Positions 1,625 through 51,642 of a stretch of 64,000 nt of DNA are shown here, piece by piece. The position numbers and the translations under genes are program-made. The stretch covers positions 3,968,001 to 4,032,000 of the forward strand of contig JAHRBC010000001.1 of NCBI GenBank assembly GCA_022702545.1. The letters run 5' to 3'. The DNA is from Phycomyces nitens (lineage: Eukaryota; Mucoromycota; Mucoromycetes; Mucorales; Phycomycetaceae). Position 1 is the stretch's first letter. Every line of letters begins with the position of its first letter. The notes under the pieces were generated by a model. That model worked only from the letters and a program-made list of their open reading frames with translations, was not told the DNA's origin and did no database searches.

Positions 1625-1698
1625 TGCCCACTACAGGGGTCGAACCTGTGGCCTTGGCGTTATTAGCACCACGCTCTAACCAACTGAGCTAAGCGGGC
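1625..1698 (-). tRNA. tRNA-Ile (anticodon AAT)
   Basis: On the minus strand the sequence folds as a complete cloverleaf: 7-bp acceptor GCCCGCT/AGTGGGC with one G-T pair, D-arm GCTC..GAGC, anticodon stem TGGTG/CGCCA with loop CTAATAA, 5-nt variable loop, and T-arm ACAGG-TTCGACC-CCTGT, plus discriminator A. Anticodon AAT (read as IAU) decodes isoleucine. The internal promoter is present as the A box around TTAGCTCAGTTGG and B box GGTTCGACCCC. There is no intron. Its 5' end, at 1698, is the insertion point of the LINE array, and insertion has left the gene intact. Confidence 0.96.
1684..1698 (-). repeat. 15-bp LINE target site, tRNA copy
   Basis: Plus-strand CTGAGCTAAGCGGGC is the first 15 nt of the tRNA-Ile gene and includes the start of the A box. 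The same 15 bases recur at 7186-7200, 11921-11935 and 12932-12946, each time right after a LINE 3' end. This is the pattern of a target site duplication. Confidence 0.85.
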
Positions 1699-1708
1699 CA
1701 GATGGAGA

Positions 1709-2719
1709 TGACACGGGTGTTGTAGTTTTTCCAGCTTCGCCCACTTTCGCAAGCAACGTCATCCTTTTCCAGACTGCCTTGCCAGAAAGAGTGACGTCGT
1801 GTCCAGTCAATATGGCAACGTCACTCATACCGCATCGCAAGTCACTTTTCATTCATATACCTCTTTACATTTCCATCTTTATCTCCCATAATCTGCATTT
1901 GAATTCTCATTCTTGTGTCTACTTTTTGTCATCTATCTCATTTTCTCTTTCCCCATGTTCCTGTCTGTGCGCATTTATCCTTATCTTCACTCTACATTTT
2001 TCTCACATATCTATATTTTCTTTATCATTATTGTCACCTATTTTTACATTATCATTTTTACTGCATATCTTGTTTTCTCATATTTTCATATCTCTGTCTT
2101 GTCTTATCATTTTACATTTTACACAATCTCTCATTATCCTTATCCATTATCTCATATTACTGTTCTATCTTTCATTCACACATCCATTTTCTACAATTCA
2201 TTATCAATCAATTCACAATTAGCTACAAAGTAATATTTTACGAAGTCTATATAAGAGACTAAAAATTCAATCAATAAACATCATCAGTTACCTCTCTCTT
2301 AATTTCCGTCCCTGAACTAGTGAATTGTCTTGTATAGAAATTCCTAGCCATACTTGTGCCAAGATTGATTTTTTCTTTTCATCCATTTCCCTTTTCGGTC
2401 AAATTTGTATCCCTCTCGTACTTTGCTGTCAACTTGTCTAATTGTCCTGAGTGAAATTATCAAGTTCCCTTCCTCTATTTTATCTCTTCCTTTTTGTACC
2501 GTTTGCTGTCAAGAATATATTCAACTGTCCCGAGCGAAGTTCTATATTTCTTTCCATATCTTACCTTTCTCTTCTCTTGTCCGTTTCTTGCTGTCTAACT
2601 TCGGTTTCTACCCCGTTGTTATCCTTATTTATTGCACCATCGTTATTGTCAACGAGTGGTATTTAATTTTCTATATTTTTCTGACTCGTTTTCACTCACA
2701 ACAAACTCAACACGCGTCA
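1709..2719 (+). repeat. 5' LTR of gag-pro element
   Basis: 1011 bp, TG...CA ends. It contains a TATA-like CTATATAAGAG near 2249 and AATAAA near 2273, which would give transcription start and poly(A) signal. It includes long pyrimidine-rich stretches that create meaningless open frames. Its left 600 bp are almost identical to the 3' LTR, but its right 400 bp differ at many positions and by small indels. Confidence 0.88.
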
Positions 2720-2855
2720 GTGGAGGTCGTGCCGAGGATTAATCAAATACAACGTGTTGAGCATCCTCTACCAATTTTTCTTTCTTATTATCTTTATTAT
2801 CTTTATTACCCCTTTTTTCTTTCGTTCTTTAAAAAAAAAAATCAATTTTCTTGCC
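2720..2855 (+). other. Leader between 5' LTR and gag
   Basis: Holds the putative primer-binding site (TGGAGGTCGTGCC at about 2721) and a pyrimidine-rich stretch ending in an A-run just before the gag ATG at 2856. No upstream ATG-initiated frame of note. A GTG-initiated extension of the gag frame exists but is not used here. Confidence 0.55.
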
Positions 2856-3686
2856 ATGAGTGATTCTACCAAGATATCCAAGTTTCTCTCCCCTCCCGAG
2901 ACGTTTTCCGGTACCGCCCAACCAGACCCGTTGACATGGTTGCAACATCTGAACCGTATCCGTAAGGCTATCGGAATGACCGATGAGGAAGCCCTGATTG
3001 TTGCCGCTTCGCACTTCAAGGGCAATGCCATTCGTTGGTGGAACATCTATGAGAAGCACACCACGAAGTGGGAGGACTTTGAATTTGCTTTCAAGAGGCA
3101 ATTCATCTCCCGTCATCTTGAAGATTTGTGGTGGGAAGAGCTTGAGACGATCAAGCAGTTGCCGTCGCAGTCGGTCGACGATCTGGCTCTCCGTCTTCGC
3201 GAGTTGTTCTCTTTTCTGGACGTCCATAGTGAAACCCAGAAGATTCGTATCTTTCTTCGTGCGGTTAACGACCGTATTGGGTACCTCCTTGAACAACAAG
3301 GTACCAAATCCGATTTTGACGGGGTGATTTCTGCTGCCCGCAAGTTGGAGATTGTCGAGGAAAAGTACCGTTCCGTACAACTAGGAGCAAGAGTTCCTTT
3401 GGACGAGTTGTCCTCTGTGTCTCGACGCACCTGGCCAACTGCTCCCCCATCAGACCAGTCGGTATATCCAGAGTCTTTCCACTCTACCCTCACCCAGTTG
3501 GCCCAAGGCATCGATGCCATCCGCGCTCGCCTGAACGAAGTCCCGGTCAATGTTGTTGCCCCAGTTGGGAACAGCGGTCCAAGAAGGCCACCTACATGTT
3601 TTGGTTGTGGCCAAGAGGGCTATCTGAGACCAGACTGTCCGGTCAAGCAAGGCGAACCGTCGGGAAAAGCCAACGGGCGGCAATAG
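2856..3686 (+). CDS. gag: Gag (capsid/nucleocapsid) of Ty3/gypsy-type element
   Basis: 276 codons from ATG at 2856 (MSDSTKISKF). A Retrotrans_gag-type core (about residues 15-150) contains the pattern TWLQHLNRI, HFKGNAIRWW and FKRQFISRH. Near the C-terminus is a zinc knuckle CFGCGQEGYLRPDC. The usual histidine is replaced by tyrosine, which fits a single C-to-T change and may weaken RNA packaging. Gag builds the virus-like particle in the cytoplasm. The stop is TAG at 3684-3686. The protease frame lies -1 relative to gag and overlaps its end. Confidence 0.9.
   Translation: MSDSTKISKFLSPPETFSGTAQPDPLTWLQHLNRIRKAIGMTDEEALIVAASHFKGNAIRWWNIYEKHTTKWEDFEFAFKRQFISRHLEDLWWEELETIKQLPSQSVDDLALRLRELFSFLDVHSETQKIRIFLRAVNDRIGYLLEQQGTKSDFDGVISAARKLEIVEEKYRSVQLGARVPLDELSSVSRRTWPTAPPSDQSVYPESFHSTLTQLAQGIDAIRARLNEVPVNVVAPVGNSGPRRPPTCFGCGQEGYLRPDCPVKQGEPSGKANGRQ
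3662..3668 (+). promoter_or_regulatory. Likely -1 ribosomal frameshift site GGGAAAA
   Basis: In the gag frame the bases read G GGA AAA, the X XXY YYZ layout of a -1 slippery heptamer, 18-24 nt before the gag stop. Slipping back one base enters the protease frame exactly (GKSQRA follows). A structure downstream was not evaluated. Confidence 0.65.
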
Positions 3687-5527
3687 AGAGGGATGTTGCC
3701 GCCCCCCAAACTCAAGTTAGTCCCTCTAACCAGGTCAACGTCGTTGAAGTTTTCGCTGCGGAGAAGCGAACCCCCATGAGAGCAGCACCAGCCAATCCAA
3801 TGGCCCGAAAGGCGAAGGAGGTGGATAGGCCTATCCAACAAGGTGCCCAGGGTGCGTTCTACCCAGTCCCCATGGAAGGAGTTGGTGGTTACCAGCAGCA
3901 GGTTGGTCCCCAAGGTGCTCCGTTTGTTATGTCGGGTGTCCAACCCCAGGGAAGTGTTCCCATCCAAGGTGCCTACCAAAGTGGTCTGTCAGGCGTGCAG
4001 TACCAGGGAGTTGCTCCCATGCAGACTGGGTACTCAGGTGGTCCTCCAGTGCCACAGGTCCAAGGTGGTTTCCCAGTTGCTGGTGGTGTGCAGGAGGCAC
4101 AAGGTGTAGATGGTGTTGTCCGCGGTGGCGGTCAAGATGTGCAAGGTGTGCACAAGGAATCTAGAAGGAAGAGAACTCCCCCTCGTCGTCTTCCCGTTGA
4201 GCTGAAAAAGAAGGACTTTTGGGAGCGTCTAAAAGCTCTAGACTCGGGCCTGTCGATGGCAGATTGGCTATCGTTGGATAGGCGTGCGAAAGATGATGTG
4301 AGGGACGGTTTGCGGTACATTTACGGTCGCAAGGACCCTCAGCACAGTTCTGCAATGGTGCACATGGTGAAGAACAAATCCGAATCTTGGGATTCAGAGT
4401 CCGAGTTTGAAAACTCTTCAAACGAAGACAATGGGTCTTGGGAGGAGGAGGAGTCGTTTGTTTCTGAGGCTGCGTCCGCTGGTTCCGGTTCCGAGGCCGG
4501 ATATGATTCCGATGATACCGAGTACAGTTACCGGTATAACTACCAGAAGTTCTCCCACAGTCAACCCCTCAAGGCGCCCATCATGATCAATGGCCAAGTA
4601 ATCGAAGCAATCTTTGATTCGGGGGCAAGCGTGTCGGTGATCAGCAAGTCGTTGGCCGAACAGCTGAGCCTCATGCCCAATGGTGACCAGTTGCCGATTT
4701 CCTCTCTCAATGGTATCCTGCACAGTCCATGCGAGATCACCATTGATGTTCCTGTACGAGTTGGTGGGAAGCTTCGTCCGGAAGCGATGTGCATCCAGGA
4801 TACCCATCCCAACCGTAAATTGTGTCTTCTGGGCATGACTTGGTGCCGCGCCTATGGTGTCCAGCTGAGGCTCCAAGATTCCGTCATCATTGTCCCTACC
4901 AAGCACGGTGCCGACTCCATTGAGGTCCAGGGCCGATCTGAGGCGATGAGCGAGTGGAAGAGTGGTGCACCAGGAGTGTTTTTTGTGGCGAGCAGGGAAG
5001 AAGATGTCCCAACTGAAGTCGTGCCAGTTGTGGATAAAGGTGCCCAGTTGTTGCCAGCCCATGACAAGGAGGTCATGTTTGTTCCCGGTTTGGAGGAGGA
5101 GCCTCCAGAGGCGATCCAGCCGTTGGTTCTGGTGAGCCAAGATGTCTGCGTGGAGAAGTCTGGTCCTGGTGTTTGTCCTGTTCTGGTCCACGAGATCCCT
5201 GTTGCCAATTGTGTTCCCGTTTGGCCATGTCCGTCTTCGTTGGCCAGGGAAGAAAAGGAGGTCTTGGACAAGAAGTCTGTCCGGTTGCTTGAGCTTGGGC
5301 TCGCAAGATCTTCTCGAGGTGCTTGTGCCTCACCCGTTGTTCCTGGTGCTCCCATGTCTGTGGACATCAGTGGTCCGTTTGGTTCTCTTGGTGGTGTTTC
5401 TGCTTCTCGGCCTTGGAGAAAGCCAGTGGTTCCTGGCAAGTGTCTTCCGGAGAAGAGTCCACCCAACGTACCTGTTTCGTCCCGAAATAGAGGACGTTTG
5501 GGCTTTCAGCCATGCCCCTTGGTCTGA
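3665..5527 (+). CDS. pro: Protease and truncated pol start, expressed by -1 frameshift
   Basis: The frame follows gag by -1 slippage; the ATG at 3596 in this frame only shadows the zinc knuckle. After a Gln/Gly/Pro-rich linker (about 3840-4140) and an acidic, serine-rich stretch (about 4380-4530), a retroviral-type aspartic protease appears with active site FDSGASVSVIS near 4615 and the later LLGMTW motif near 4829. It would cut gag. Near 5190-5340 the frame shows HEIPVAN, VWPCPSSLAREEKEVLDK and CASPVV, the linker that leads into gypsy reverse transcriptase. The RT palm never follows. Instead about 60 unrelated codons lead to the stop. This is an internal deletion of most of pol. Confidence 0.85.
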   Translation, partial: KSQRAAIERDVAAPQTQVSPSNQVNVVEVFAAEKRTPMRAAPANPMARKAKEVDRPIQQGAQGAFYPVPMEGVGGYQQQVGPQGAPFVMSGVQPQGSVPIQGAYQSGLSGVQYQGVAPMQTGYSGGPPVPQVQGGFPVAGGVQEAQGVDGVVRGGGQDVQGVHKESRRKRTPPRRLPVELKKKDFWERLKALDSGLSMADWLSLDRRAKDDVRDGLRYIYGRKDPQHSSAMVHMVKNKSESWDSESEFENSSNEDNGSWEEEESFVSEAASAGSGSEAGYDSDDTEYSYRYNYQKFSHSQPLKAPIMINGQVIEAIFDSGASVSVISKSLAEQLSLMPNGDQLPISSLNGILHSPCEITIDVPVRVGGKLRPEAMCIQDTHPNRKLCLLGMTWCRAYGVQLRLQDSVIIVPTKHGADSIEVQGRSEAMSEWKSGAPGVFFVASREEDVPTEVVPVVDKGAQLLPAHDKEVMFVPGLEEEPPEAIQPLVLVSQDVCVEKSGPGVCPVLVHEIPVANCVPVWPCPSSLAREEKEVLDKKSVRLLELGLARSSRGACASPVVPGAPMSVDISGPFGSLGGVSASRPWRKPVVPGKCLPEKSPPNVPVSSRNRGRLGFQPCPLV

Positions 5528-5850
5528 TTCCCACGCCCGTAATCTTCCTGAGGAGTTAGGCTACTTGTTCTTGGCGCCGCTTCCTCAGCGACCTTTTTTT
5601 TTTTCTTTACCGATGATTTATCATTTTCCTGAATATATGAAGACCACTGCAAGTATCTCGCCTTGGTTTTCAGCCCGAATATCACTTTTCCTTTTTCTTC
5701 TTTCTTCTCTGTCCTGTCACACAAACCCAAGCATTCTGTCACCGCAATCAAATCCAAAGCCAGCCCCATTTCTTCTCTCGCCTGGATGGATCCTCTTCTT
5801 TTCTGTTGCCCTTGCTTTCTCTTTCGTGGCCTTGCTTAGTGGGGGGACCC
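5528..5850 (+). other. Non-coding 3' region and polypurine tract
   Basis: No gene. The region is pyrimidine-rich and ends in AGTGGGGGGACCC (about 5838-5850), a polypurine tract that would prime plus-strand DNA at the 3' LTR. Confidence 0.7.
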
Positions 5851-6861
5851 TGACACGGGTGTTGTAGTTTTTCCAGCTTCGCCCACTTTCGCAAGCAACG
5901 TCATCCTTTTCCAGACTGCCTTGCCAGAAAGAGTGACGTCGTGTCCAGTCAATATGGCAACGTCACTCATACCGCATCGCAAGTCACTTTTCATTCATAT
6001 ACCTCTTTACATTTCCATCTTTATCTCCCATAATCTGCATTTGAATTCTCATTCTTGTGTCCACTTTTTGTCATCTATCTCATTTTCTCTTTCCCCATGT
6101 TCCTGTCTGTGCGCATTTATCCTTATCTTCACTCTACATTTTTCTCACATATCTATATTTTCTTTATCATTATTGTCACCCATTTTTACATTATCATTTT
6201 TACTGCATATCTTGTTTTCTCATATTTTCATATCTCTGTCTTGTCTTATCATTTTACATTTTACACAATCTCTCATTATCCTTATCCATTATCTCATATT
6301 ACTGTTCTATCTTTCATTCACACATCCATTTTCTACAATTCATTATCAATCAATTCACAATTAGCTACAAAGTAATATTTTACGAAGTCTATATAAGAGA
6401 CTAAAAATTCAATCAATAAACATCATCAGTTATCTCTCTCTTATTTTCCGTCCCTGAATTAGTGAATTGTCTTGTATAGAAATTCCTAAACATACTTCGT
6501 GCCAAGATTGATTTTTCTTTTCATCCTTTTCCCTTTTTCCTGATTTTGTAACTTCCCAGTACCTTGTTGTCAACTTGATTAATTGTCCTGAGCGAAATTA
6601 TCTAGTTCTCTCTCTCTCTTTGTATCCCTATCTTTGTATCCGTTGCTGCCAAGAATATATTTAACTGTCCCGAGCGAAGTTCATATATCTCTTTCTATTC
6701 TCTCACCTTCTTCCTTTCTTGTCCTCTTGCTGTCTTTGAATCGCGGTTTTACCCCCGTTATATTCATTCTTTATCGCACCCTCGTTATTGTCAACGAAGT
6801 GGTATTCAAATTAATATATTTTCTGACTCGTTATCACACACAACAAACTCAACACGCGTCA
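5851..6861 (+). repeat. 3' LTR of gag-pro element
   Basis: 1011 bp with the same ends and TATA/AATAAA positions as the 5' LTR. It is followed by the GAGA target duplication and then by LINE A sequence. It is nearly identical to the 5' LTR in its first 600 bp and clearly divergent in the last 400 bp. Confidence 0.88.
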
Positions 6862-7185
6862 GAGACTATGCCCATGAGACTGATCATGGCCTTTCTTGGC
6901 ATTAGTTTAGCTAGATTTCTTTTCTTTCTTTCCACTCTTTCTGAAATGTTTCTTGTTCTGTAAATCTGTCTCCTCCCTTTCACTGTTACACCTTTTTACA
7001 CAGCTGCAAAGTGGAGAGCAGGTTCAGGCTTTTAGCTTAGTATGATTTGTTTCCCTTCTCCCCCTCTACTTTTTTTGTCTTTGTGATTTCCTTAGACTTT
7101 TTTGTTCCTCTCTTTTGCACCTGGGATGCTATATGATCTATAGATTGCCAGCATTATATCCCTATAATAAAAAATAATCTTTAAT

Positions 7186-7200
7186 CTGAGCTAAGCGGGC
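7186..7200. repeat. 15-bp tRNA-derived target duplication (A/B junction)
   Basis: CTGAGCTAAGCGGGC, identical to the first 15 nt of tRNA-Ile in reverse. It separates the A-rich 3' end of LINE A from the first base of LINE B. Confidence 0.85.
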
Positions 7201-7430
7201 ACTGCTCTTTCACTTTAACATTTATTTTAACCGGTTGGCAATTTTTATTATTGCCGCATCCATTCAAAATCGATATCCATCCATCCAACAAACACTCTAA
7301 AACGACGCATCCATTGACGAAATCGTTGCATCCATCGTCCATCAACCCCCAGCTGCATTCATCCATCCCCCAGGTACCTCAGAAAATTTTTTCCGGGCTC
7401 TCCAACATTTTTTCGTTTTCACAATCTCCG

Positions 7431-8318
7431 ATGTCCACATCGTTGCCACAATCTGCAATGCAGGGATTACCTGACGAACTTGCTGCATTCCTGAGCAACA
7501 TGCATGCTCAATTCACCGAACTCCAGTGCAGAACTGCCCAGCTGGAGACCCTTGCTGCCGCCAATTCCCGATTGACCTCGGAATTAGACCAAGCCAAGAA
7601 GATGATTGCCGATCTCAAAGCTGAGAATGCAATGTTGGCCGGAAAAATTTTTCCTGCTATTTCGAACCCTGCCGGCACGCCTCAGCCCCCTTTACAAAAT
7701 AAAGAACCAGGCACTGCAGCTTCAACTTGGGCTCAAACAGTGAGTTCTAACCGCCCTGCTAAGCAAAGACTTGCTCCTTCTGCCCGCCGAGTTGCCACTT
7801 CTACTCGTATGTTTGTCCTTCCTTCTGGTCCTACAGGATATAAGTATGTATATATTCCTCGCTCTCGCCACCTTACACACCGTGAAGTTCGGCAATCTCT
7901 CAAAACCCTTAGTGTTGAATCCTCTCGCCTTTTGGATATTACTTTTCCTGCTCGTGGTGTTGTTGGCATCCTTGTGCATCTCCAGTATCTCTCTGAGTTC
8001 CAAGCCCAGTTGTCCTCTGCATCTATCAAGTGGTTAGATGACTTTGATCCCCTGGATCCAAGTCATATTGCTGATCCCAAATATGCCAGGCTGTCAATCC
8101 ATGAACTTGCCCAAACTGCTGCTCAACTTCACAATAACCGCTGTCTCCATGCTCTCAAGTATCTACGCCCCCATATTGCTATCCCTGTTGCCCACTTTTT
8201 CTGTAATGAAGGGTGGATTGCTCCTGAAGATGTCCCCACTCGTGCTGCTCCTGGTTCTGGCTTGCTGGACAACTCTCTTAAAAGATCTCGCAGTGGTTCT
8301 GTTGGCATGTCTGAATGA
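7431..8318 (+). CDS. LINE ORF1 protein (coiled coil, RNA-binding role)
   Basis: The ATG at 7431 (MSTSLPQ) is the only ATG upstream of the conserved region and matches the start in LINE C at 13171. The open frame upstream lacks ATG. The predicted 295 aa include a heptad-like coiled coil (about residues 15-70, with LQCRTAQLETL and LTSELDQAKKM). After a Pro/Ser linker comes a conserved globular part (YVYIPRSRHLTHREV, FPARGVVGILVHLQYLSEF, YLRPHIAIPVAHFF). No CCHC knuckle is seen. Its role is presumably to chaperone element RNA. The globular part resembles no family I can name. The end TGA overlaps the ORF2 ATG. Confidence 0.82.
   Translation: MSTSLPQSAMQGLPDELAAFLSNMHAQFTELQCRTAQLETLAAANSRLTSELDQAKKMIADLKAENAMLAGKIFPAISNPAGTPQPPLQNKEPGTAASTWAQTVSSNRPAKQRLAPSARRVATSTRMFVLPSGPTGYKYVYIPRSRHLTHREVRQSLKTLSVESSRLLDITFPARGVVGILVHLQYLSEFQAQLSSASIKWLDDFDPLDPSHIADPKYARLSIHELAQTAAQLHNNRCLHALKYLRPHIAIPVAHFFCNEGWIAPEDVPTRAAPGSGLLDNSLKRSRSGSVGMSE
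8315..8318 (+). promoter_or_regulatory. ATGA stop-start overlap between LINE ORFs
   Basis: The ORF1 stop TGA (8316-8318) overlaps the ORF2 start ATG (8315-8317). The same ATGA is kept in LINE C at 14051-14054. This suggests termination-reinitiation coupling, as known for some other LINEs. Confidence 0.7.
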
Positions 8319-11300
8319 GTGACATCTCATTAGGACTTTGGAATGCTAATGGTCTTCAACGCCGTGCTATTCATGATGTTCTTCAACACTGTCAGTCATT
8401 ACATATGCTTTTTATTACCAAAACTTGGCTTCTCTCTCCTTCTCTCATTCCCACTTCCTGGTCTCAAATCCACCTTTATGGTTCTCCAGTTGCTGGCTCC
8501 TACCGTGGTTCCATGGGAGTTTCTGTTCTCATCTCCCCTTCCTGTCCTTACCCAGTTACCCAAGTCCCTATGCCCTCAAAATATGCCCTTGCTGTCAAAA
8601 TTGGACCACTTCGTGTTATATGTCTATACCTTCCCCCCACTATGTCCACACCTGATGCTCTTGCCATTCTGTCCTCCCTTCCTTTAACCCATGATACTAT
8701 TATCTGTGGTGATCTGAATGCACGCTTGGGCTCTCTCACAGGTGACTATGCTACTAACTCATGTGGTCTTGCCTTATGCCAATGGATTGAAGAGCGCCAG
8801 CTTCATGTTGTCAATGGTGACCTGGCCCCTTCTATCCCCACCTACCTCTCCTTCCGCCTCAATGTTGAAATCAGCAGCATTGTTGACCTCTTCTTGACCA
8901 ATATGACCCTCCAAAACGCCTCCCTTGATATCCACATTGACCTCTCCCTTAACTCTGACCACCGCCTATTATGCCTCTCCTTCCCCTATGCTTTTGACTC
9001 ATCCTCCTCCTCCTCTCCTCCCCCCTTGAGGCAAACATGGAATCTCTCCCGCCTCCAAGAACCTGATGTCAGCCAACTCTATGCCAATACCTTTATGACT
9101 ATGTCCTCTGAATTTAAGTACACTCTCCTGACCATAACCCAAGACCCCCCAACCACCTGTCCTCCAATTGATCTCCTCACTGATCAATTCAATTCCCTCC
9201 TTTATGAATCCCTTACCAACTCTATTGGCAAGCGCCTCTCACGTCCCAAGCACTGGAAAGCCTTCTGGAACCCATCATTGCAACAAGCTGCTGACCACCG
9301 CAATTATTGCTACAAGAAATGGCGGGGTGCCAGTGGCATTGACAAGATCCCCTGGTGGGATAAGCATGTAAAAGCCCAGACTGAATTTTGCTTACAAGTC
9401 CAAACTGCCAAACGCCAATCCTGGCATGTCTTTTGCAGATCAATGGAACGCGATTTTGCCAAGGCCACATCAAAGATCAAGCAACTGAAACGTAGGCGCC
9501 AACCCCAGCACGTTTTCCAACATGATGATGGCCCAGCCCATGCAGCTTCTATCATGTGTGACCACCTTGCCTCTGTCTATAGTAGACATATTCTTCCTGC
9601 TTCGCGCCCACCCCCTCCTTCCTCCTCTGCTGCTTTGCCCTTTGCCTCTGCTGACTCCCCATTTGATTCTTCAATGGTGGAGGGATGCATGCGATTCATG
9701 CCTAACCGCAAGGCCCCTGGTCCAGATCATATACGTGCTGAAATGCTTAAGCCCCTTCGTCCCCATGTTGCCCCTATCCTTGCCCTCCTTTTTACCCTAT
9801 GCTGGCAATGGTCCTATGTCCCTCTCCTTTGGCGCCAAGCCCAGGTGTTCCCCATTTTCAAAAAGGGTGATCCTACTCAGGCTGCCAATTATAGGCCAAT
9901 TTCACTCACATCTGTCCTACGAAAGCTGCTTGAAATGTGCCTCTCTCCCCTCCTACACCAGTTCTCTCCCCCTCTTGACGTTGCCCAGGGTGGATTTCGA
10001 CCTAGACGTGGTGCAATGGACCAAGCCCTCTGCCTTCATGACCTTATGAAAACTTATTTCCATCGTCATAACCATTACCCCGTTGTTGCTTTTCTGGATA
10101 TCAAAGCTGCTTATGACACTGTAGACCGACGTGTTATCTGGGATGCTCTGGCCAAACGATCCACTCCCCCTGCTCTTCTTGGTCTTCTGGTCAACCTCTT
10201 TGATGATGTCTCCATTTCTGTTCTCCTTGGAAACTTCTCTTCACACTCCTTTACCCCTGTTACTGGTGTTCTCCAGGGTTCAGTTCTCAGCCCCCATCTG
10301 TACTCCATCTATGTCAACTCCTTACCTCCTCTCCTGCGCACAGTTGCCTCCCCCCTCTCCTCCACCTATGTCCCCTCCAAGTCCCCCTCCTCCTTGGAGT
10401 CTTACCAGTCCCTCCTTGCCCCACCTGGTGCCAATGGTTTTGACCATCCTGTTGCCCCCACTCCCATCAACTCACTCCTTTTTGCTGATGATGTTGCAAT
10501 ATTTGGTTCTGCTGCTAATGTCCAGAGTATGCTCAACCTTGCTGCCCAACATTCCTTTAAACTTGGCTATCGTTGGAGTCCCTCCAAATGTGCCATCCTC
10601 TACCCTCCTTCCCGTTCTCTTCGCCATCCCAATCTCTCTCTGTATGGTGAGTTGCTCCCTGCAGTAGATGAGTTCATATACCTTGGTATGCCCTTTCGTA
10701 ATAAGGGTATTTTTGGCCCCTCTATTGTTACCCATCGCCGTTCTGGAACGTTGGCTACCATGGCTACCCTCAATGCTGTTGGGGCCTGCAGATCTGGCTT
10801 CTCCCTTCTCTTGAGTTCAAGACTCTATCGCACTTTTGTTTGCCCAAAGTTTGAGTATGGCCTTGCTATATCACGCCTCTTGCAAAAGGATCTTACCCAG
10901 CTTGAAAAGATCCAGGACAAATGCCTGCGTATAATAGTTGGTGGTCATGCAACATCCTCTACAGCCGTCCTTAAACACATATGTAACTTGCCCTCTATGC
11001 GATTTCGTGCTGATATCCTCATCACCAAGTTCTGTATCCGTGCTCATTACCTTCCTTCTGGCTGCCTATTGTCTCTCCTTCATCTTCACCATCCTCAATC
11101 CTCTTCTCTTGCCTCTCTTCAGCAGAACCCACTGCTCCTCAGCATCCCACTTGATCTGAATGTTCATTCTTCCAATGCCTTGTCATGCCACTTTGAGTCT
11201 TTTCGACAACAAAAGTTTGACCAATTCAGAGTATCCACAAGCCAAATCCTGCTCCTTGCCTGCCGCCCTCTTCTGGAAGTAGATCCTGTGTTGTTTCTGC

Positions 11301-11635
11301 CTGCAACTCGCATTGAACGTGGCCGTTTAGTTCGTTGGAGAATGGGCTGGCTCCCTGGTAAACCCAGAGAGTGCACTTGCCAACAGGACCACACCTCAAG
11401 ACGCCACCTCCAAACCTGTACTGCCCTTCCTTCTGACCTCCTTGCTCTCCTTCCTTCTCCACCCACCCCTGATCTCAATTTGATTGACTACGCCCTCACC
11501 TCCCTGCCTACCACAGCTGCCACACGCCCCTCCTACTGGACTGCTCTCCTTACTATCCTCTGGCATATTGATACCCTCTGTAGCCCAGATGGGAACTATG
11601 CCCATGAGATTGATCATGGCCTATCTTGGCATTAG
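8315..11635 (+). CDS. LINE ORF2: endonuclease and reverse transcriptase
   Basis: 1106 aa, uninterrupted. An APE-type endonuclease is at about residues 1-230 (LWNANGLQ, IICGDLNARLG, LNSDHRLL). The first catalytic acid is lost: the usual ITETW motif, kept in LINE C as FITETWLL, is FITKTWLL here. A reverse transcriptase lies at about 450-770 (RKAPGPDHIRAEML, FKKGDPTQAANYRPISL, FLDIKAAYDTVDRR, GVLQGSVLSP, and the catalytic LLFADDVA). A C-terminal Cys/His cluster ECTCQQDH..HLQTC is at about 1030-1050. There is no RNase H domain. The enzyme would nick the tRNA-Ile site and copy its RNA there. The Glu-to-Lys change probably makes this copy unable to nick. Translation likely depends on re-initiation at ATGA. 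Confidence 0.93.
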   Translation: MSDISLGLWNANGLQRRAIHDVLQHCQSLHMLFITKTWLLSPSLIPTSWSQIHLYGSPVAGSYRGSMGVSVLISPSCPYPVTQVPMPSKYALAVKIGPLRVICLYLPPTMSTPDALAILSSLPLTHDTIICGDLNARLGSLTGDYATNSCGLALCQWIEERQLHVVNGDLAPSIPTYLSFRLNVEISSIVDLFLTNMTLQNASLDIHIDLSLNSDHRLLCLSFPYAFDSSSSSSPPPLRQTWNLSRLQEPDVSQLYANTFMTMSSEFKYTLLTITQDPPTTCPPIDLLTDQFNSLLYESLTNSIGKRLSRPKHWKAFWNPSLQQAADHRNYCYKKWRGASGIDKIPWWDKHVKAQTEFCLQVQTAKRQSWHVFCRSMERDFAKATSKIKQLKRRRQPQHVFQHDDGPAHAASIMCDHLASVYSRHILPASRPPPPSSSAALPFASADSPFDSSMVEGCMRFMPNRKAPGPDHIRAEMLKPLRPHVAPILALLFTLCWQWSYVPLLWRQAQVFPIFKKGDPTQAANYRPISLTSVLRKLLEMCLSPLLHQFSPPLDVAQGGFRPRRGAMDQALCLHDLMKTYFHRHNHYPVVAFLDIKAAYDTVDRRVIWDALAKRSTPPALLGLLVNLFDDVSISVLLGNFSSHSFTPVTGVLQGSVLSPHLYSIYVNSLPPLLRTVASPLSSTYVPSKSPSSLESYQSLLAPPGANGFDHPVAPTPINSLLFADDVAIFGSAANVQSMLNLAAQHSFKLGYRWSPSKCAILYPPSRSLRHPNLSLYGELLPAVDEFIYLGMPFRNKGIFGPSIVTHRRSGTLATMATLNAVGACRSGFSLLLSSRLYRTFVCPKFEYGLAISRLLQKDLTQLEKIQDKCLRIIVGGHATSSTAVLKHICNLPSMRFRADILITKFCIRAHYLPSGCLLSLLHLHHPQSSSLASLQQNPLLLSIPLDLNVHSSNALSCHFESFRQQKFDQFRVSTSQILLLACRPLLEVDPVLFLPATRIERGRLVRWRMGWLPGKPRECTCQQDHTSRRHLQTCTALPSDLLALLPSPPTPDLNLIDYALTSLPTTAATRPSYWTALLTILWHIDTLCSPDGNYAHEIDHGLSWH

Positions 11636-11920
11636 CCTAGCTAGTTTTCCTTTCTTTTCTTTCCTTCCTCTCCTTCTGAAATGTTTCTTGTTCTGCAATT
11701 CTGTCTCCTCCCTTTCACTGTTACACCTTTTTACACAGCTGCAAAGTGGAGAGCAGGTTCAGGCTTTTAGCTTAGTATGATTTGTTTCCCTTCTCCCCCT
11801 CTACTTTTTTTGTCTTTGTGATTTCCTAAGACTTTTTTGTTCCACTCTTTTGCACCTGGGATGCTATATGATCTATAGATCGCCAGCATTATATCCCTAT
11901 AATAAAACATAATCTTTAAT
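11636..11920 (+). other. LINE 3' UTR
   Basis: Conserved among copies A, B and D. It includes AAAGTGGAGAGCAGGTTCAG, GGGATGCTATATGATCTATA and the end TATAATAAAACATAATCTTTAAT, which may be what the reverse transcriptase recognises. No gene. Confidence 0.75.
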
Positions 11921-11935
11921 CTGAGCTAAGCGGGC
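11921..11935. repeat. 15-bp tRNA-derived target duplication (B/D junction)
   Basis: CTGAGCTAAGCGGGC again, between the 3' end of LINE B and the first base of the short LINE D. Confidence 0.85.
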
Positions 11936-11945
11936 ATGATTTGTT

Positions 11946-12793
11946 TGACACAAGTGTTGTAGAATGTTCCAGCAACGACCACCAACCCTCAATTTACTAG
12001 TGACTTTGAAGTTTTTACCTTGGGACAGTCAAAGACGTCACCTTCCCTTGGGACATGCAAGGCATGATCTGATCTCTTGGAATCATTTGTCTACGTCAAC
12101 AGCCCCGTTGAGTTCTAAATGTTTTCCCCTTTCTTTTCCTTTGATTTATATTTCCTTTTTCATTTGCTTCCCACTGCATTGCACTTGTTCCTTTCGCACT
12201 TCTTGATATTACTCCTTTTGTATACTTCCCGATAGTGCATTTCTCTCTTGATGTTTAGTTTCCTTTTTGTTTTCCTTTTGTGATTATGCCCAAAGAACTG
12301 TACACTCTTCTTGATAATCATCATTCAGCATAAGTTATATCTAGATTGTCACTATGTGCACAGTTGTCAATTAGTATAAAAGAGCTCCATTTTTTATTCA
12401 ATAAAATACATTCAGTTTTCTCTCTATTTCTTTTGAACATTGTCCCTGAACTTGAGCTATTGTCCTGCGGGAAATACTAAGTTGCACACTGTTAGGATCT
12501 ACAAGTACTGTCTCATCGTTTGTCTGTTTGTTCGTTTGTCCGTTTGTCTGTTTGTCTGTTTGTCCATTTGTTCGTTGTCCGTTTACCTGTCCGTTTGCCT
12601 GTCCGTTTGCCTGTCCGTTTGCCTGTCCGTTTGCCTGTCCGTTTGCCTGTTTACCGTCTTTATCTATTTCAAGTCCCGTCTGATTGTCAAATTCTTCTTG
12701 TTGGATTGTCCTGAGCGAAATCACAAGAATACAATATATATTATTTATATATTCTGACCTGTTGCACCACACACCATAACTCAACACGCGTCA
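11946..12793 (+). repeat. Solo LTR of the gag-pro gypsy family
   Basis: 848 bp, TGACACAAGTGTTGTAG...CAACACGCGTCA, related to the LTRs at 1709 and 5851 at its ends but divergent inside. It is flanked by a 4-bp target duplication TGTT (11942-11945 and 12794-12797). No internal region is present, so it arose by LTR-LTR recombination. It has AATAAA near 12400 and a 12-bp minisatellite. Confidence 0.85.
12515..12652 (+). repeat. Minisatellite inside solo LTR
   Basis: Variants of GTTTGTCT/GTTTGTCC pass into about five near-perfect copies of the 12-mer GTCCGTTTGCCT. Absent from the two 1011-bp LTRs. The open frames across it on both strands are artefacts of the repeat. Confidence 0.8.
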
Positions 12794-12931
12794 TGTTTCC
12801 CTTCTCCCCCTTTACTTTTTTTGTCTTTGTGATTTCCTTAGACTTTTTTGTTCCTCTCTTTTGCACCTGGGATGCTATATGATCTATAGATCGCCAGCAT
12901 TATATCCCTATAATAAAAAATAATCTTTAAT

Positions 12932-12946
12932 CTGAGCTAAGCGGGC
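12932..12946. repeat. 15-bp tRNA-derived target duplication (D/C junction)
   Basis: CTGAGCTAAGCGGGC, followed by the 5' end of LINE C (ATACTCTTTCACTT), which matches the 5' end of LINE B. Confidence 0.85.
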
Positions 12947-13170
12947 ATACTCTTTCACTTATAGGATATTTTTCCCCAAAAAATTTTCTTTTTTAGTAAT
13001 TTTTTGCCGATACCTATCTACCCATAGCAACATTGAACATCCCCAAGCATCCATCGTCTAAGACGTCGCATCCAACAGCCATAACACCATCCTCAACACG
13101 CTTACCCGTCATAGCACCCACTGACCAAGTCTCAGAACGATCGAACAACTTTTTTCCGTTGAGATTACCG

Positions 13171-14054
13171 ATGTCAACATCATTGCCCCCATCTCTCATG
13201 CAGGGAATGCCAAGTGATCTCATGGCATACCTTGCTGATCTTGCCAAGAAGGTCGATGCCCTCACTGCTGCCAGTGCCCACTGGGAAGCCGTTGCGGCCA
13301 AAAACGTCCGGTTGACAGAAGAACTTGCTGAGACCAAGTTGCAGCTTGCCAAAGTTTTGGGCAAACAAAACTCTTCCCCCCAGGGTCCAGCCCCTATTGT
13401 TTCACTCTCCGCCCCTGTCCCCACACCCAGTTCCCAGGAACCAGGGTTAGAAGCCTCCACCTGGGCTGTAAAGGCCAGCGTCCACCGCCCTCCCCCACCC
13501 GCAAGAGTCTCTCTCCTCGTCGAGTTGCCGCCTCCCAGCGAGTATTCACTGCCCCCTCTGGCCCCAACGGATATGAATACATTTATATCCCACGTTCCCG
13601 CCACCTCACCCATAGGGAAGTGCACAGTTCCCTCAGAACCCTTGGCGTTGACACAGCTCGTCTTCTGGACATCAACTTCCCTGCTCGCGGCGTTGTGGGT
13701 ATCCTTGTCCACCTCCAGTTTGCCTCTGACTTCAAGACACAGCTTGAAAAAGCTGGTGTCGAACTCATCTTGGATTTCTATCCTTTGGACCCCCAGCACT
13801 TGGCTGACCCTAAGTTTAGGGATATGTCAATTGACGACCGTGCTGACAAGGCCATGGAAATCCAGCACGATAGGTGCATCCAAGCCCTTAAGTTCCTGCG
13901 CCCCCATGTTGCCATACCTGTGGCCCATTACTTTGTTGAAGCAGGCTGGATCTGTAACGACGAAGTGCCCACTCGTACAGCTTTGGAGGGTGATGCTGAA
14001 TCAGCCTTCAAAAGAAAACGTAGCCTTGCTCCCAGCAACCATATGGAAGAATGA
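13171..14054 (+). pseudogene. LINE ORF1 (copy C), frameshifted
   Basis: Starts MSTSLPPSLMQGMP like copy B and keeps the coiled coil (LTEELAETKLQLAKVL). A frameshift near 13490-13560 moves the conserved second half (FPARGVVGILVHLQF, FLRPHVAIPVAHYF) into another frame that ends at the TGA 14052-14054. The ATGA overlap with ORF2 is kept. Confidence 0.8.
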
Positions 14055-15200
14055 GTGAGATCTCATTTGGACTATAGAATGCAAACGGTCTTCAACCCCA
14101 TGCTATTAACGACGTGCTCAACCACTGTCAGTCTCTACATATGCTCTTCATCACAGAAACATGGCTCCTATCACCTGCGCGTATACCCACATCATAGTCC
14201 CAAATTCATTTGTACGGATCCCCTGTTGCTGGGAACTACCGTGGGTTGATGGGAGTTTCATTGTTAATCTCCCCCTCCTGCCCTTATCCCGTCACCCAAA
14301 TCCCTATGCCCAACAATTATGCCCTCACAGTCAAGATTGGCACCCTTCGACTGGTTTGCCTATACCTGCCACCAAACATGCCCACTGCCGATGCCCTTTC
14401 CATCCTCTCAGCCATTCCTTTAACTGATGACACCATTATATGTGGCGACCTCAACGCCAGACTGGGTTCTCTCACTGGTGATTATGCCACCAATTCCTGC
14501 GGCCTAGCCCTCTGTGAGTGGCTAGAAGAATGCTCCCTTACTGTCCTTAACGGCTCCCTCTCTCCATGCACCCCCACCTACATTTCCTTCTGCCATGATG
14601 TTGAAATCAGCAGCATCATTGACCTCTTCATCACCAACACCAACCTCACCAACCCCTCCCTCCACATTGCCACCAAACTCTCCTTGGGCTCTGACCACCG
14701 CCTCCTCTCCCTTTCCTTTACCTATGCCCTCCAACCCGCCCCTCCCCCTCCCCCTCCCATTCGACGCCTCTGGAACCTATCCCGTCTCAAGGAACCAGAG
14801 TGTTTAGACTTATATACCTCCACCCTCATCACCAATTCCGCCCCCCTCCGTTCCACTCTGCAAGAAATTGTAGAAAATCCGCCCTCCTCTCCTCCCCCTA
14901 TTGATGCCCTCACTAACGATTTCAACTCACTCATTTATGACTCTCTTAGTAGCTCAATAGGTAACCACCCTCCCCGTCCCTCCAAGTGGAAGAAGTTCTG
15001 GACACCTGCCCTTCAAGAGGCAGCCGACCATTGTGATGGTTGCTACAAGCAATGGCGTCGAGCTTGTGGCATAGACAAGATCAATTGGTGGAGCCGGCAC
15101 CAACGAGCACATCTGGAGTTCCGCCAAGCCGTTCAGACCGCCAAACGCGCTTCCTGGCACGCCTTCTGTGAGGCTATGGAGAGAAACTTTGGCAAAGCTA
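14051..15200 (+). pseudogene. LINE ORF2 (copy C), endonuclease part only
   Basis: ATG at 14051 overlaps the ORF1 stop. Two early in-frame TAG codons replace the Trp codons seen in copy B (near 14078 and 14198); the frame is then open to the Tc1 insertion. Endonuclease motifs are complete, including the Glu of FITETWLL that B has lost, GDLNARLG and GSDHRLL. The RT domain is missing. Confidence 0.82.
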
Positions 15201-16811
15201 CAGTAGGTGGAAAAAGGGTTCGCATGTTCTATTAAAAAATATATATTTTGATAGTACTCTTTCAATTTTTAATATTTTCATATAAAACAAAATGTTTTAT
15301 ATACATTATATATAAAACTACCACATATAAAAATATCAACGGCTGAGAATGAATATTAATTTAATAAAACTCAGACAAATTTTTGAAAAGTATGTGAACC
15401 CTTTTTCCACTTTGGATAAATTAGTAGAAAATAAATTATTTCTCTGTGACTTTTGCTTATAAATCGTTCAAAGTCACATATAATAGTCAAAATGAGTCAT
15501 ATAATCGGAATATAAAACAAAAACATATATAAATGACTAAGTTTTTCTTTTTATTTTCATATTATTCCTTGTTTCTTTTAAAATGAAAATTCTACCTCTT
15601 TCTCTCAGAAATTCTATCCAAAGTCAGCTTCAAAGTGGTACCTCTGTCAAGAAAATTTCCAAGAACCTTTCTATCTCTGCTGGGACTGTATCCAAGTATA
15701 AAAAGAAGATGAAGATCACTGAAAAAATCTCTATTGGTGGCCAAATTGCAAAAATTTCCCAAGTCAGAAGGCGCCTGTTAGTAAGACAATTTGTAACTGG
15801 TGAAATACAAACTGCCAAAGAAGCACATATGAAATTAGATCAAGAGGGACTGCAGCTTGACTATTCTACTGTTTGCAAGACCCTGAAGGCACTTGGTTTC
15901 AGAGCAGCAATTAAAAAGAAGAAGCCAATGATATCAGAGAAAAATCAACAAACAAGACTTAAATGGGCTTTAGAGCATCAACACTGGACTGTTCATGATT
16001 GGAAACATGTTATATTCTCAGATGAGACCAAAATCAATATTTGGGGATCTGATGGAGTAAAATATCATTGGAAAAGGCCAGATGACCCACTACGAGACCA
16101 TCATCTTGATTTAACTGTAAAACATGGAGGAGGCAGTTTGATGATGTGGGGATGCATGACTTATGAAGGCATTGGATATGGTTGTCACATACAAGAACTC
16201 ATGACAAGCAAAGTTTACTGTGATATACTTGAAGATAACCTGAAAGAAACTATAGATTTCTATAGTTTTGATAAGCAAAATATCATTTTTCAGCATGATA
16301 ATGACCCAAAACACACAGCCAAGACAACCAAACAGTACATCAGTGATATGGAATTGTAAGTACTCCCTTGGCCAGCCCAATCCCCAGACCTGAACCCAAT
16401 TGAGCATCTTTGGCATCATTTAAAGTTGCAACTTTCTTTATACTCTTTGAAGGCTAAAGGAGTACATGAACTTTGGGAAAGATGTGATAAAGAATAGAAC
16501 AATATCACGCAGGATATTTGTAAAAAGTATATAGATACAATTCCAGCAAGAGTTGAAGCAGTAATTAAGGCAAAAGGCAAAAATACTAAATATTAATAAA
16601 AGTGGCAAAAGGGTTCGCATGTAATAAAAATCTTTGTATTTATTTATCTCAATATGTTTTGAATCTCCGCTTATAAAATTTATAATAAATATACACCTAA
16701 AAAATATCTTTCAAATACTTTTTGTTTTATGCTAATATGATGCATATTCATAGAGATATTATAAGAATAATAAATAATATATAAACATGCGAACCCTTTA
16801 TCCACCTACTG
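15201..16811 (+). mobile_element. Tc1/mariner-type DNA transposon
   Basis: 1611 bp with terminal inverted repeats CAGTAGGTGGAAAAAGGGTT / mirrored at 16786-16811, flanked by TA on both sides (15199-15200 and 16812-16813), the Tc1/mariner signature. Each end also has a second, inner copy of the TIR core in inverted orientation (near 15388-15413 and 16600-16622). The transposase has stop codons. Confidence 0.92.
15583..16596 (+). pseudogene. Tc1-like DD34E transposase with two stops
   Basis: From ATG 15583 the frame carries an N-terminal helix-turn-helix (VKKISKNLSISAGTVSKY) and a second one, then the DDE domain: FSDETKINIWG, FQHDNDPKHTAKTT and SPDLNPIEHLWH. Spacing between the second Asp and the Glu is 34 residues, as in Tc1. 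An in-frame TAA (16357-16359) falls before the catalytic Glu and a TAG occurs near 16494, so no active enzyme is made. Without the stops the frame is 337 codons, a normal Tc1 length. Confidence 0.92.
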
Positions 16812-51500: not shown

Positions 51501-51642
51501 GCCAACTTTTCAAAAGTACAACTATGATAATATTTTGCCTGTCCATCACATCCTTTCGCCAATTGCGATAGGCAATCATATTTCTGGTCGTGGTGCAGCC
51601 AAAGTTCTTGTCATTCCCTTGCCTAGAAAGCTTTATGCTTAG
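48581..51642 (+). CDS. tnp2-type CACTA transposase, copy D, intact
   Basis: Four exons joined in frame by GT-AG introns. Exon 1 (ATG 48581) has ECRCLKCVCNPAGYMITAKRTAKRH, a zinc-cluster start. Exon 2 is short and acidic (DMDMEAIQFEEDIE). Exon 3 is acidic (HESSDEDAEEEEAEQG). Exon 4 runs from about 49160 to TAG 51640-51642. Catalytic-region motifs: DVYDGKMWKEF, LTLNIDWFQPFDG, INNLPRDKRNKMENVIL, GLMPGPKEA, VACDIPAARKTCGFTSHNS, DPMHNLFLGTAKRMME and YGYWLFSFERYNGL. The C-terminal module reads YAGRIKYLFVHNF...HVFAFVEWYEI. No stops. This is the best candidate for an active source of the family. It converges with the companion gene, leaving about 120 bp between their stops. Confidence 0.88.

Follow-up and report, generated by a model that had tools for sequence, protein, structure and literature searches.

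A lineage of LINE retrotransposons in Phycomyces nitens very probably uses target-primed reverse transcription to enter certain tRNA genes at a single fixed position, rebuilding the genes as it does so. In the window (the whole stretch of 64,000 nucleotides that was analysed), LINE copies A, B, D and C are found next to an intact tRNA-Ile(AAU) gene, anticodon AAT, as originally predicted (Table 1), and this observation proved to be both real and understated. The 15-mer CTGAGCTAAGCGGGC was found by search on the + strand at each of the four expected places, 1684, 7186, 11921 and 12932, compared with none in 100 shuffles and a chance expectation of 0.00 even with two mismatches. Since the tRNA gene is on the minus strand, with its nucleotides 1–15 corresponding to the + strand 15-mer at 1684–1698, the 15-mer is the reverse complement of tRNA nucleotides 1–15 and the LINEs are directed away from the tRNA. 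The original prediction spoke of four LINE 3' ends or copies; there are indeed four copies, but only three 3' ends in the window (A, B and D). The two copies with a full 5' end (B and C) both begin one base after a 15-mer, and the 3' ends of A and D stop one base before one.

Table 1. Features of the array beside tRNA-Ile(AAU), in window coordinates.
Feature	Position	Strand	Evidence
Intact tRNA-Ile(AAU) gene, target	1625..1698	-	ARAGORN; Rfam 64.6 bits
LINE A, first 10 nt of 5'-truncated copy (ORF2 part), GAGA at end	1699..1708	+	sequence
Ty3-like LTR element inside LINE A, 10 nt from tRNA	1709..6861	+	
LINE A, remainder, second GAGA to LINE 3' end	6862..7185	+	94.5% identity to LINE B
15-bp target-site duplication	7186..7200	+	15-mer match
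LINE B, full length	7201..11920	+	sequence comparison
LINE B ORF1, 355 aa, listed from a TTG	7251..8318	+	
LINE B ORF2, 1106 aa, endonuclease and reverse transcriptase	8315..11635	+	PF14529, PF00078
15-bp target-site duplication	11921..11935	+	15-mer match
LINE D, first 10 nt of 5'-truncated copy, TGTT at end	11936..11945	+	sequence
Solo LTR (TGACAC...CGTCA) inside LINE D, 10 nt from 15-mer	11946..12793	+	
LINE D, remainder, second TGTT to LINE 3' end	12794..12931	+	97.1% identity to LINE B
15-bp target-site duplication	12932..12946	+	15-mer match
LINE C, 5' end intact, broken inside ORF2 near 15223	12947..15223	+	65.6% identity to LINE B over ORF2 residues 1–392

Both LINE A and LINE D are 5'-truncated, and each is interrupted by its own LTR element, which begins exactly 10 nt away from a 15-mer and is flanked by a 4-bp duplication, GAGA in LINE A and TGTT in LINE D. 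The element in LINE A carries a pair of LTRs (approximately 1709–2720 and 5851–6861) together with gag and protease domains, Retrotrans_gag scoring above its Pfam cut-off and Ty3_capsid below. Reading LINE A as an LTR-only stretch was rejected because LINE ORF2 sequence and the 4-bp repeat are present on both sides of the LTR element; the same ORF2 stretch that supplies its 10-nt piece is unbroken in another copy, L030.

The element is a non-LTR retrotransposon (LINE) with an apurinic-type endonuclease, and endonuclease (PF14529, residues 100–218) and then reverse transcriptase (PF00078, residues 516–793) are encoded in one ORF. Among proteins of solved structure, the best matches to ORF2 were LINE-1 ORF2p and R2 proteins, and no RNase H domain was matched by Pfam in ORF2 of LINE B; Pfam matches to ORF1 were all sub-threshold and of coiled-coil type. 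As is typical of LINEs, there are 5'-truncated copies (A and D) and target-site duplications, including five copies at off-target sites, and the element has no LTRs of its own. Among named proteins, the closest come from Phycomyces, followed by Mucor, Rhizopus and Umbelopsis. LINE B ORF2 has a lysine at one conserved position that is glutamate in all 13 aligned relatives, a point that counts against the proposed account.

Genome-wide, 57 distinct 3' ends of the LINE lineage were read and the next 15 nucleotides compared with tRNA genes. It can be seen that these are the reverse complement of tRNA nucleotides 1–15, with 0–1 mismatches, at 41 of the 57 ends; one further end has four mismatches and falls in neither class, and 15, scored as off-target, have six or more. 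In a control, none of 20,000 random 15-mers from the window came within three mismatches of a tRNA 15-mer. Most copies thus occupy one exact position, between tRNA nucleotides 15 and 16, as expected of a sequence-specific LINE, and the concern raised with the original prediction, that other copies might not be followed by tRNA 5' ends, is answered by the same count. Site specificity is not absolute, as 15/57 ends are at unrelated sites. The 5' 15-mer of the tRNA was correctly identified as the site, but the supposed restriction to tRNA-Ile did not hold, nine tRNA species being hit (Ile, two Thr, Phe, three Ser and two Leu). In the 49-Mb assembly there are 20 copies of CTGAGCTAAGCGGGC, 11 in intact tRNA-Ile genes and nine alone after LINE 3' ends. 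All 66 places carrying the 13-mer LINE terminus were examined and sorted, partly by eye, into 38 tRNA-type ends, 14 off-target LINE ends (L098 and L104 being the weakest of these calls), one in neither class and 13 non-LINE.

Identity of the four 15-mers in the window would also fit an invariant LINE RNA tail that is not copied from the target. We give this almost no credence and reject it, as LINEs with the same 3' terminus are followed by different 15-mers that track the adjacent gene (Ser(AGA) vs Ser(UGA) vs Leu), and off-target copies have unrelated 15-mers on both sides. The stubs are of the Ser(UGA) type at two Ser(UGA) genes and of the Ser(AGA) type at six Ser(AGA) genes. At 22 tRNA genes called by ARAGORN, 38 distal copies of the 15-mer match their gene, 33 exactly and five with one mismatch; for those more than 5.5 kb away, the partner is taken to be the closest correctly oriented gene bearing the identical 15-mer, with most of the DNA in between unread. 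All 14 copies at 4.3–5.5 kb match their own tRNA gene exactly, indicating that the 15-mer is a target-site duplication. At six places a tRNA gene was predicted to lie one LINE length away, and at five of these it was found. C7:4085300–4085700 (L090) was rejected as a tRNA site, since it holds an LTR and the start of a LINE; a tRNA-Thr(UGU) gene lies to its left, at L113.

Five of the 15 off-target copies were checked for duplications and all five have them at 15 bp, three exact and two matching at 13/15, which indicates that the 15-bp stagger is intrinsic to the element. Together with a first nick after nucleotide 15, inside the A box, an intrinsic stagger of this length places the second nick at nucleotide 1; the position of the duplications thus agrees with the proposal that nicking occurs within the A box, between nucleotides 15 and 16.

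We suggest that the endonuclease, as the probable source of target specificity, would nick the tRNA sense strand first, in the A box after nucleotide 15 (...CTCAG^ or ...GAG^), and that the freed 3' end would prime copying from the 3' terminus of the LINE RNA (...CTTTAAY). The cut in the other strand would fall 15 bp away, precisely at the tRNA 5' boundary, and repair would duplicate nucleotides 1–15, leaving a whole tRNA gene on one side and a 15-nt stub behind the LINE on the other. The rebuilt gene, which presumably remains active, would be open to further hits, and arrays would grow outward as each new LINE moves older ones away. Ty3-like LTR elements are present at the same genes approximately 10 nt upstream of nucleotide 1, producing layered LINE and LTR records.

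A LINE at nucleotide 1 is absent at some genes of targeted species, for example L013, L022, L073, L075, L118, L123, L138 and L139, and the Thr(AGU) 15-mer without a preceding LINE fits ten places, four of which were read. The 15-mer CTGAGCTAAAGCTGG at L034/L132 (C8:40145) has no second copy in the assembly, and no tRNA there matches it. The Rfam tRNA search is not a census, since 63 of 2276 candidates were scored.

An array could also arise if one ancestral insertion were multiplied, either by tandem duplication or by unequal exchange. Near-equal units at tRNA-Leu(CAA), C4:7999804, have spacings of 4746, 4744 and 4731 bp, and the first two LINEs there share an extra GGAC at the 5' end; single units of that array may have been duplicated. 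As a general account, however, duplication is very unlikely, because single LINE units with matching ends are found at many separate tRNA genes, and for the window a duplicated single block was rejected, in agreement with the original prediction, because the copies differ in truncation point, in subfamily (compare C with B in Table 1) and in LTR content.

Ty3-like LTR elements lie 9–13 nt from nucleotide 1, an offset counted from the tRNA and not from the start of transcription, at 21 of the 45 tRNA genes read, a set that is limited to targeted species and partly chosen via LINEs and so does not give a genome-wide occupancy rate. LTRs are also found 9–12 nt beyond 27 of 41 stubs. The LTRs thereby make the arrays layered, with LINEs and LTRs together. 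If new LINEs inserted at lone 15-nt stubs as well as at intact tRNA genes, array order would not be time order, and since the stub holds the entire duplicated part of the target, such an insertion would look identical. We consider this unlikely, although less so than duplication: the LTRs beyond stubs fit an intact tRNA adjoining the stub when the LTR arrived, and the stubs that carry a mismatch are more distant from the tRNA (five at 21.6–27.8 kb vs 33 at 4.3–27.4 kb; one-sided Mann-Whitney P = 0.003, in a small sample with far pairs assigned rather than read through). If arrays do grow at the tRNA end, their insertions are ordered in time, which is rarely possible with LINEs.

The lineage comprises two groups. 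The targets of one are class I tRNAs that start with GCC (Ile, Thr and Phe), those of the other class II tRNAs (Ser and Leu). All 39 distinct contexts scored show agreement between group and target; two pairs of near-identical contexts were merged for this scoring, hence 55 ends rather than the 57 distinct places. At off-target sites, the three nucleotides preceding the nick agree with the tRNA targets of the group concerned in 6/6 cases for GAG and 7/9 for CAG, where the G before the nick carries no evidential weight since the search pattern forces C after TTTAAY. It is possible, although we lean against it, that the LINE reaches tRNA genes through TFIIIC, TFIIIB or the polymerase and that the endonuclease adds little specificity. 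Every on-target site falls within a Pol III promoter element, and the same genes host Ty3-like LTR elements. Tethering by Pol III factors has been proposed for Ty3 and TRE5-A; the precedents are Ty3 integrase–TFIIIB and TRE5 ORF1–TFIIIB (PMC5911963, in the part available). Tethering is, however, a question of how the site is found and not of where the insertion goes, and the nucleotide-exact position, the division of tRNA species between LINE groups and the shared off-target trinucleotides all count against it as the sole mechanism. The two may act together.

On balance we favour a gene-preserving LINE specificity, in which the 15-bp nick spacing would equal the distance separating the A-box nick from the 5' end of the tRNA, subfamilies would split the tRNA repertoire by CAG vs GAG and, with the Ty3-type elements, tRNA genes would be layered, traceable records of transposition. 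No account of such a tRNA-docking LINE was found in the literature searched, mostly without subscription papers. The short, conserved target makes the endonuclease a good candidate for dissecting LINE target choice, and the two natural groups, at CAG^ and GAG^ sites, allow comparison.

Kojima and Fujiwara 2004 is reportedly the source for the site-specific LINEs R2 (28S rRNA), Mutsu (5S), Keno (U2) and Dewa (tRNA-Leu spacer). These share with the P. nitens LINE an exact site with off-target exceptions and an endonuclease/reverse transcriptase protein, but have other targets, and it is the P. nitens insertion that would rebuild the target gene. The Dewa site is given as the tRNA-Leu spacer and not the tRNA in the available part of PMC3706591.

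The dictyostelid elements TRE5, TRE3, NLTR-A (D. purpureum) and NLTR-B (P. pallidum) are likewise LINEs found at many tRNA genes without destroying them. According to the available parts of PMC5911963 and PMC5006619, TRE5 inserts 40–54 bp upstream, TRE3 40–150 bp downstream and NLTR-A 2–6 bp upstream of the tRNA. In contrast to these insertions at a set distance outside the gene, the first nick of the P. nitens LINE would be inside it, and the duplication is tRNA nucleotides 1–15; as far as the available descriptions go, NLTR-A and NLTR-B also have the RNase H domain that P. nitens ORF2 lacks by Pfam. Several lineages of Dada DNA transposons insert in the tRNA A box at nucleotides 8–13, including tRNA-Ser and tRNA-Ile (PMC8869645, in the part available), but these have a DDE transposase and 6–7-bp duplications, unlike this reverse transcriptase element with its 15-bp duplication. 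Dada sits inside the tRNA gene, interrupting it, whereas the tRNA-targeting retrotransposons tabulated in PMC5911963, as far as available, adjoin theirs. With the present lineage, the known means by which mobile elements reach safe ground come to include a tRNA site that is exact to the nucleotide and non-destructive.

According to section 7 of PMC2699053, Ty3-like elements of Rhizopus oryzae are often found together with tRNA genes; LINEs at tRNA genes are not mentioned there. The LTR partner in the arrays has a Ty3-like position near the tRNA and is a neighbour of the LINE, not the LINE itself.

Pieces of apparent parental flank are present at some LINE 5' ends: L081 carries 13 nt of tRNA-Leu(UAG), and L057 the last 12 nt of an LTR. 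If truly parental, such pieces would allow moves between tRNA genes to be traced.

Four copies of the element lie head to tail in the window, reading away from the 5' end of a tRNA-Ile(AAU) gene, and each of the first three is followed by the reverse complement of nucleotides 1-15 of that gene (hereafter the 15-mer). The 15-mer occurs four times in the window and was absent from 100 shuffles of it. Judged by its ORF2, the element is a LINE: the best sequence matches among solved structures are human LINE-1 ORF2p and R2 proteins, and named relatives occur in Phycomyces, Mucor, Rhizopus and Umbelopsis. LINE B has two open frames of 355 and 1106 amino acids, the longer (ORF2) carrying endonuclease and reverse transcriptase domains. 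Its ORF2 residue 36 is lysine; the other copies in hand and 13/13 aligned relatives have glutamate here, which we take to be a catalytic residue of such endonucleases. Between the two LTRs of the Ty3-like element within LINE A, identity per 100 nt is 98–100% up to nucleotide 600 and 75–88% beyond, as though one of them had been pieced together from two LTR families.

Table. Features of the LINE array and other mobile element sequences in the window.
Feature	Position	Strand	Description
tRNA-Ile(AAU) gene	1625-1698	-	gene prediction and Rfam
LINE A	directly at tRNA-Ile(AAU) 5' end		5'-truncated, interrupted by Ty3-like LTR element, then 15-mer
LTRs of Ty3-like element	1709-2720, 5851-6861		
LINE B	after LINE A's 15-mer		full-length, then 15-mer
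LINE B ORF2	8315-11635		
LINE D	after LINE B's 15-mer		truncated, interrupted by solo LTR, then 15-mer
LINE C	after LINE D's 15-mer		5' end intact, ORF2 broken
Tc3-type transposase ORF	15583-16359		HTH_Tnp_Tc3_2; near breakpoint of LINE C
Transposase_21 gene	22138-24576	-	open, 812 aa
Helitron_like_N with DUF6570	45860-47347		possible Helitron piece
Transposase_21 gene	49198-51642	+	open, 814 aa
AAA/PIF1-like helicase fragment	61990-62823		possible Helitron piece

Across the assembly (49 Mb, 11 contigs) there are 20 exact copies of the 15-mer, 11 in intact tRNA-Ile genes and nine behind LINE 3' ends. Related LINE copies, mostly 65–75% identical in ORF2, share a common 3' terminus and are followed by differing 15-mers, which are the 5' ends of Thr(UGU), Thr(AGU), Phe, Ser(AGA), Ser(UGA), Ser(GCU), Leu(CAA) and Leu(UAG) genes. 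The insertion at tRNA-Ile 5' ends noted originally is borne out, and the finding is broader than was first stated, since other tRNA species are hit too. Among 57 distinct LINE 3' ends read, 34 are followed by an exact match to one of the nine tRNA 15-mers, seven by a match with one mismatch, one by a match with four, and 15 by sequence with at least six. Of 20,000 15-mers drawn at random from the window, none was as close as three mismatches. We regard this anatomy of insertion as secure.

The 15-mer had also been proposed to be a target-site duplication, and the copies lying away from the genes show that it is. At the 22 tRNA genes that could be paired with one or more distal copies, 38/38 distal copies match the gene (33 exactly, five with one mismatch), the match of those beyond 5.5 kb not being independent because they were assigned to the nearest correctly oriented gene with that same 15-mer. 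A cleaner test comes from the copies at 4.3–5.5 kb, a distance close to one LINE length, of which 14/14 match exactly. A fixed RNA tail as the source of the 15-mer is excluded, since near-identical LINE ends carry the Ser(AGA) or the Ser(UGA) 15-mer, whichever gene adjoins. Where no tRNA was yet known for a LINE 3' end, its partner gene was sought one LINE length (approximately 4.74 kb) upstream, a prediction able to fail: of six stretches so inspected, five (L083–L087) contained a tRNA gene whose 5' end matched and the sixth (L088) did not. For this last LINE 3' end, a tRNA-Phe gene bearing its 15-mer, together with a LINE start (L116), lies 11.9 kb away.

Of 15 off-target ends, five, from short truncated pieces, were examined on both flanks, and every one has a 15-bp duplication, exact at C1:2034141, C9:959182 and C7:668530 and 13/15 at C4:8595581 and C7:1586458. 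Since these copies away from tRNA genes show it too, the 15-bp spacing is a property of the element itself. The first nick would fall inside the A box, between tRNA nucleotides 15 and 16, and the second at the first base of the tRNA; with 15-bp spacing, the gene would therefore be rebuilt. LINE group (class I at Ile, Thr and Phe genes, class II at Ser and Leu) agrees with tRNA class in 39/39 distinct on-target contexts. Off target, the trinucleotide before the nick, whose last G was fixed by the search pattern, is GAG at 6/6 class-II-type ends, and CAG at 7/9 and GAG at 0/9 class-I-type ends, a split with a chance probability of 1 in 5005 by our own arithmetic. Off-target sites thus echo the tRNA targets of their own group.

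The 5' flanks of 45 tRNA genes of targeted species were read and scored by eye, and a LINE starts at nucleotide 1 in 30: Ile 6/11 (including truncated LINE A), Thr(UGU) 3/3, Thr(AGU) 2/4 read, Phe 7/9, Ser(AGA) 5/8, Ser(UGA) 2/2, Ser(GCU) 1/1 read, Leu(CAA) 3/6 and Leu(UAG) 1/1 read. The ambiguous L077 was left out of the 30, and 13 of the calls are based on a LINE remnant of 9–13 nt ahead of an LTR, with LINE sequence found past the LTR at two (L014, L021).

LTRs of several kinds, all beginning TGACAC, start 9–13 nt from nucleotide 1 at 21/45 of these genes, and 9–12 nt beyond 27 of 41 stubs (lone 15-mers behind LINE 3' ends), at exactly 10 nt in 15 of the 27. Ty3 requires a working tRNA gene; if the TGACAC elements do too, an intact tRNA would have adjoined each such stub when the LTR arrived, which supports growth of the arrays at the tRNA end. 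One-mismatch stubs lie farther out than exact ones (5 vs 33, P = 0.003), a small sample that agrees with such growth. At two tRNA-Ile genes (L018, L019), an LTR starting near position 5017 is followed within 3–4 bases by a different LTR, so LTR elements too stack at one site.

Two full-length copies appear to retain flanks of their parent copies, carried in the transcript. L081, a Ser(AGA) copy on C9, has 13 nt of the Leu(UAG) 15-mer between its own 15-mer and the LINE 5' end, and in L057, the second copy at C4:4952103, the 15-mer gives way to the terminal 12 nt of an LTR. Transcription would then begin a short distance upstream of the LINE. The additional G residues seen at the 5' ends of L076, L083 and L087 could, speculatively, be copied caps.

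In the literature searched, outside which most subscription papers lie, we found no LINE with fixed-nucleotide insertion inside tRNA genes. The dictyostelid LINEs TRE5, TRE3 and NLTR-A insert 40–54 bp upstream, 40–150 bp downstream and 2–6 bp upstream of tRNA genes, respectively (PMC5911963, PMC5006619), and thus outside the gene, whereas the Phycomyces nitens LINE enters at a fixed nucleotide inside it. Zebrafish Dewa targets the tRNA-Leu spacer (PMC3706591), Ty3-like elements of Rhizopus oryzae often co-localise with tRNA genes (PMC2699053), and Dada DNA transposons insert into the A box, at nucleotides 8–13 (PMC8869645), interrupting the gene that the Phycomyces nitens LINE would rebuild.

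Among the 63 tRNA candidates scored of 2276 in the assembly, 12 of 13 hits that share one score (65.1 bits, 73 nt) are located no more than approximately 40 kb from a contig end (for example C4:4394, C7:5287, C1:9938416 and C9:13199), suggesting a subtelomeric repeat that contains a tRNA. In C2:16911-160421, many tRNA hits are repeated at intervals of approximately 66.9 kb, possibly reflecting a concatenated mitochondrial contig.
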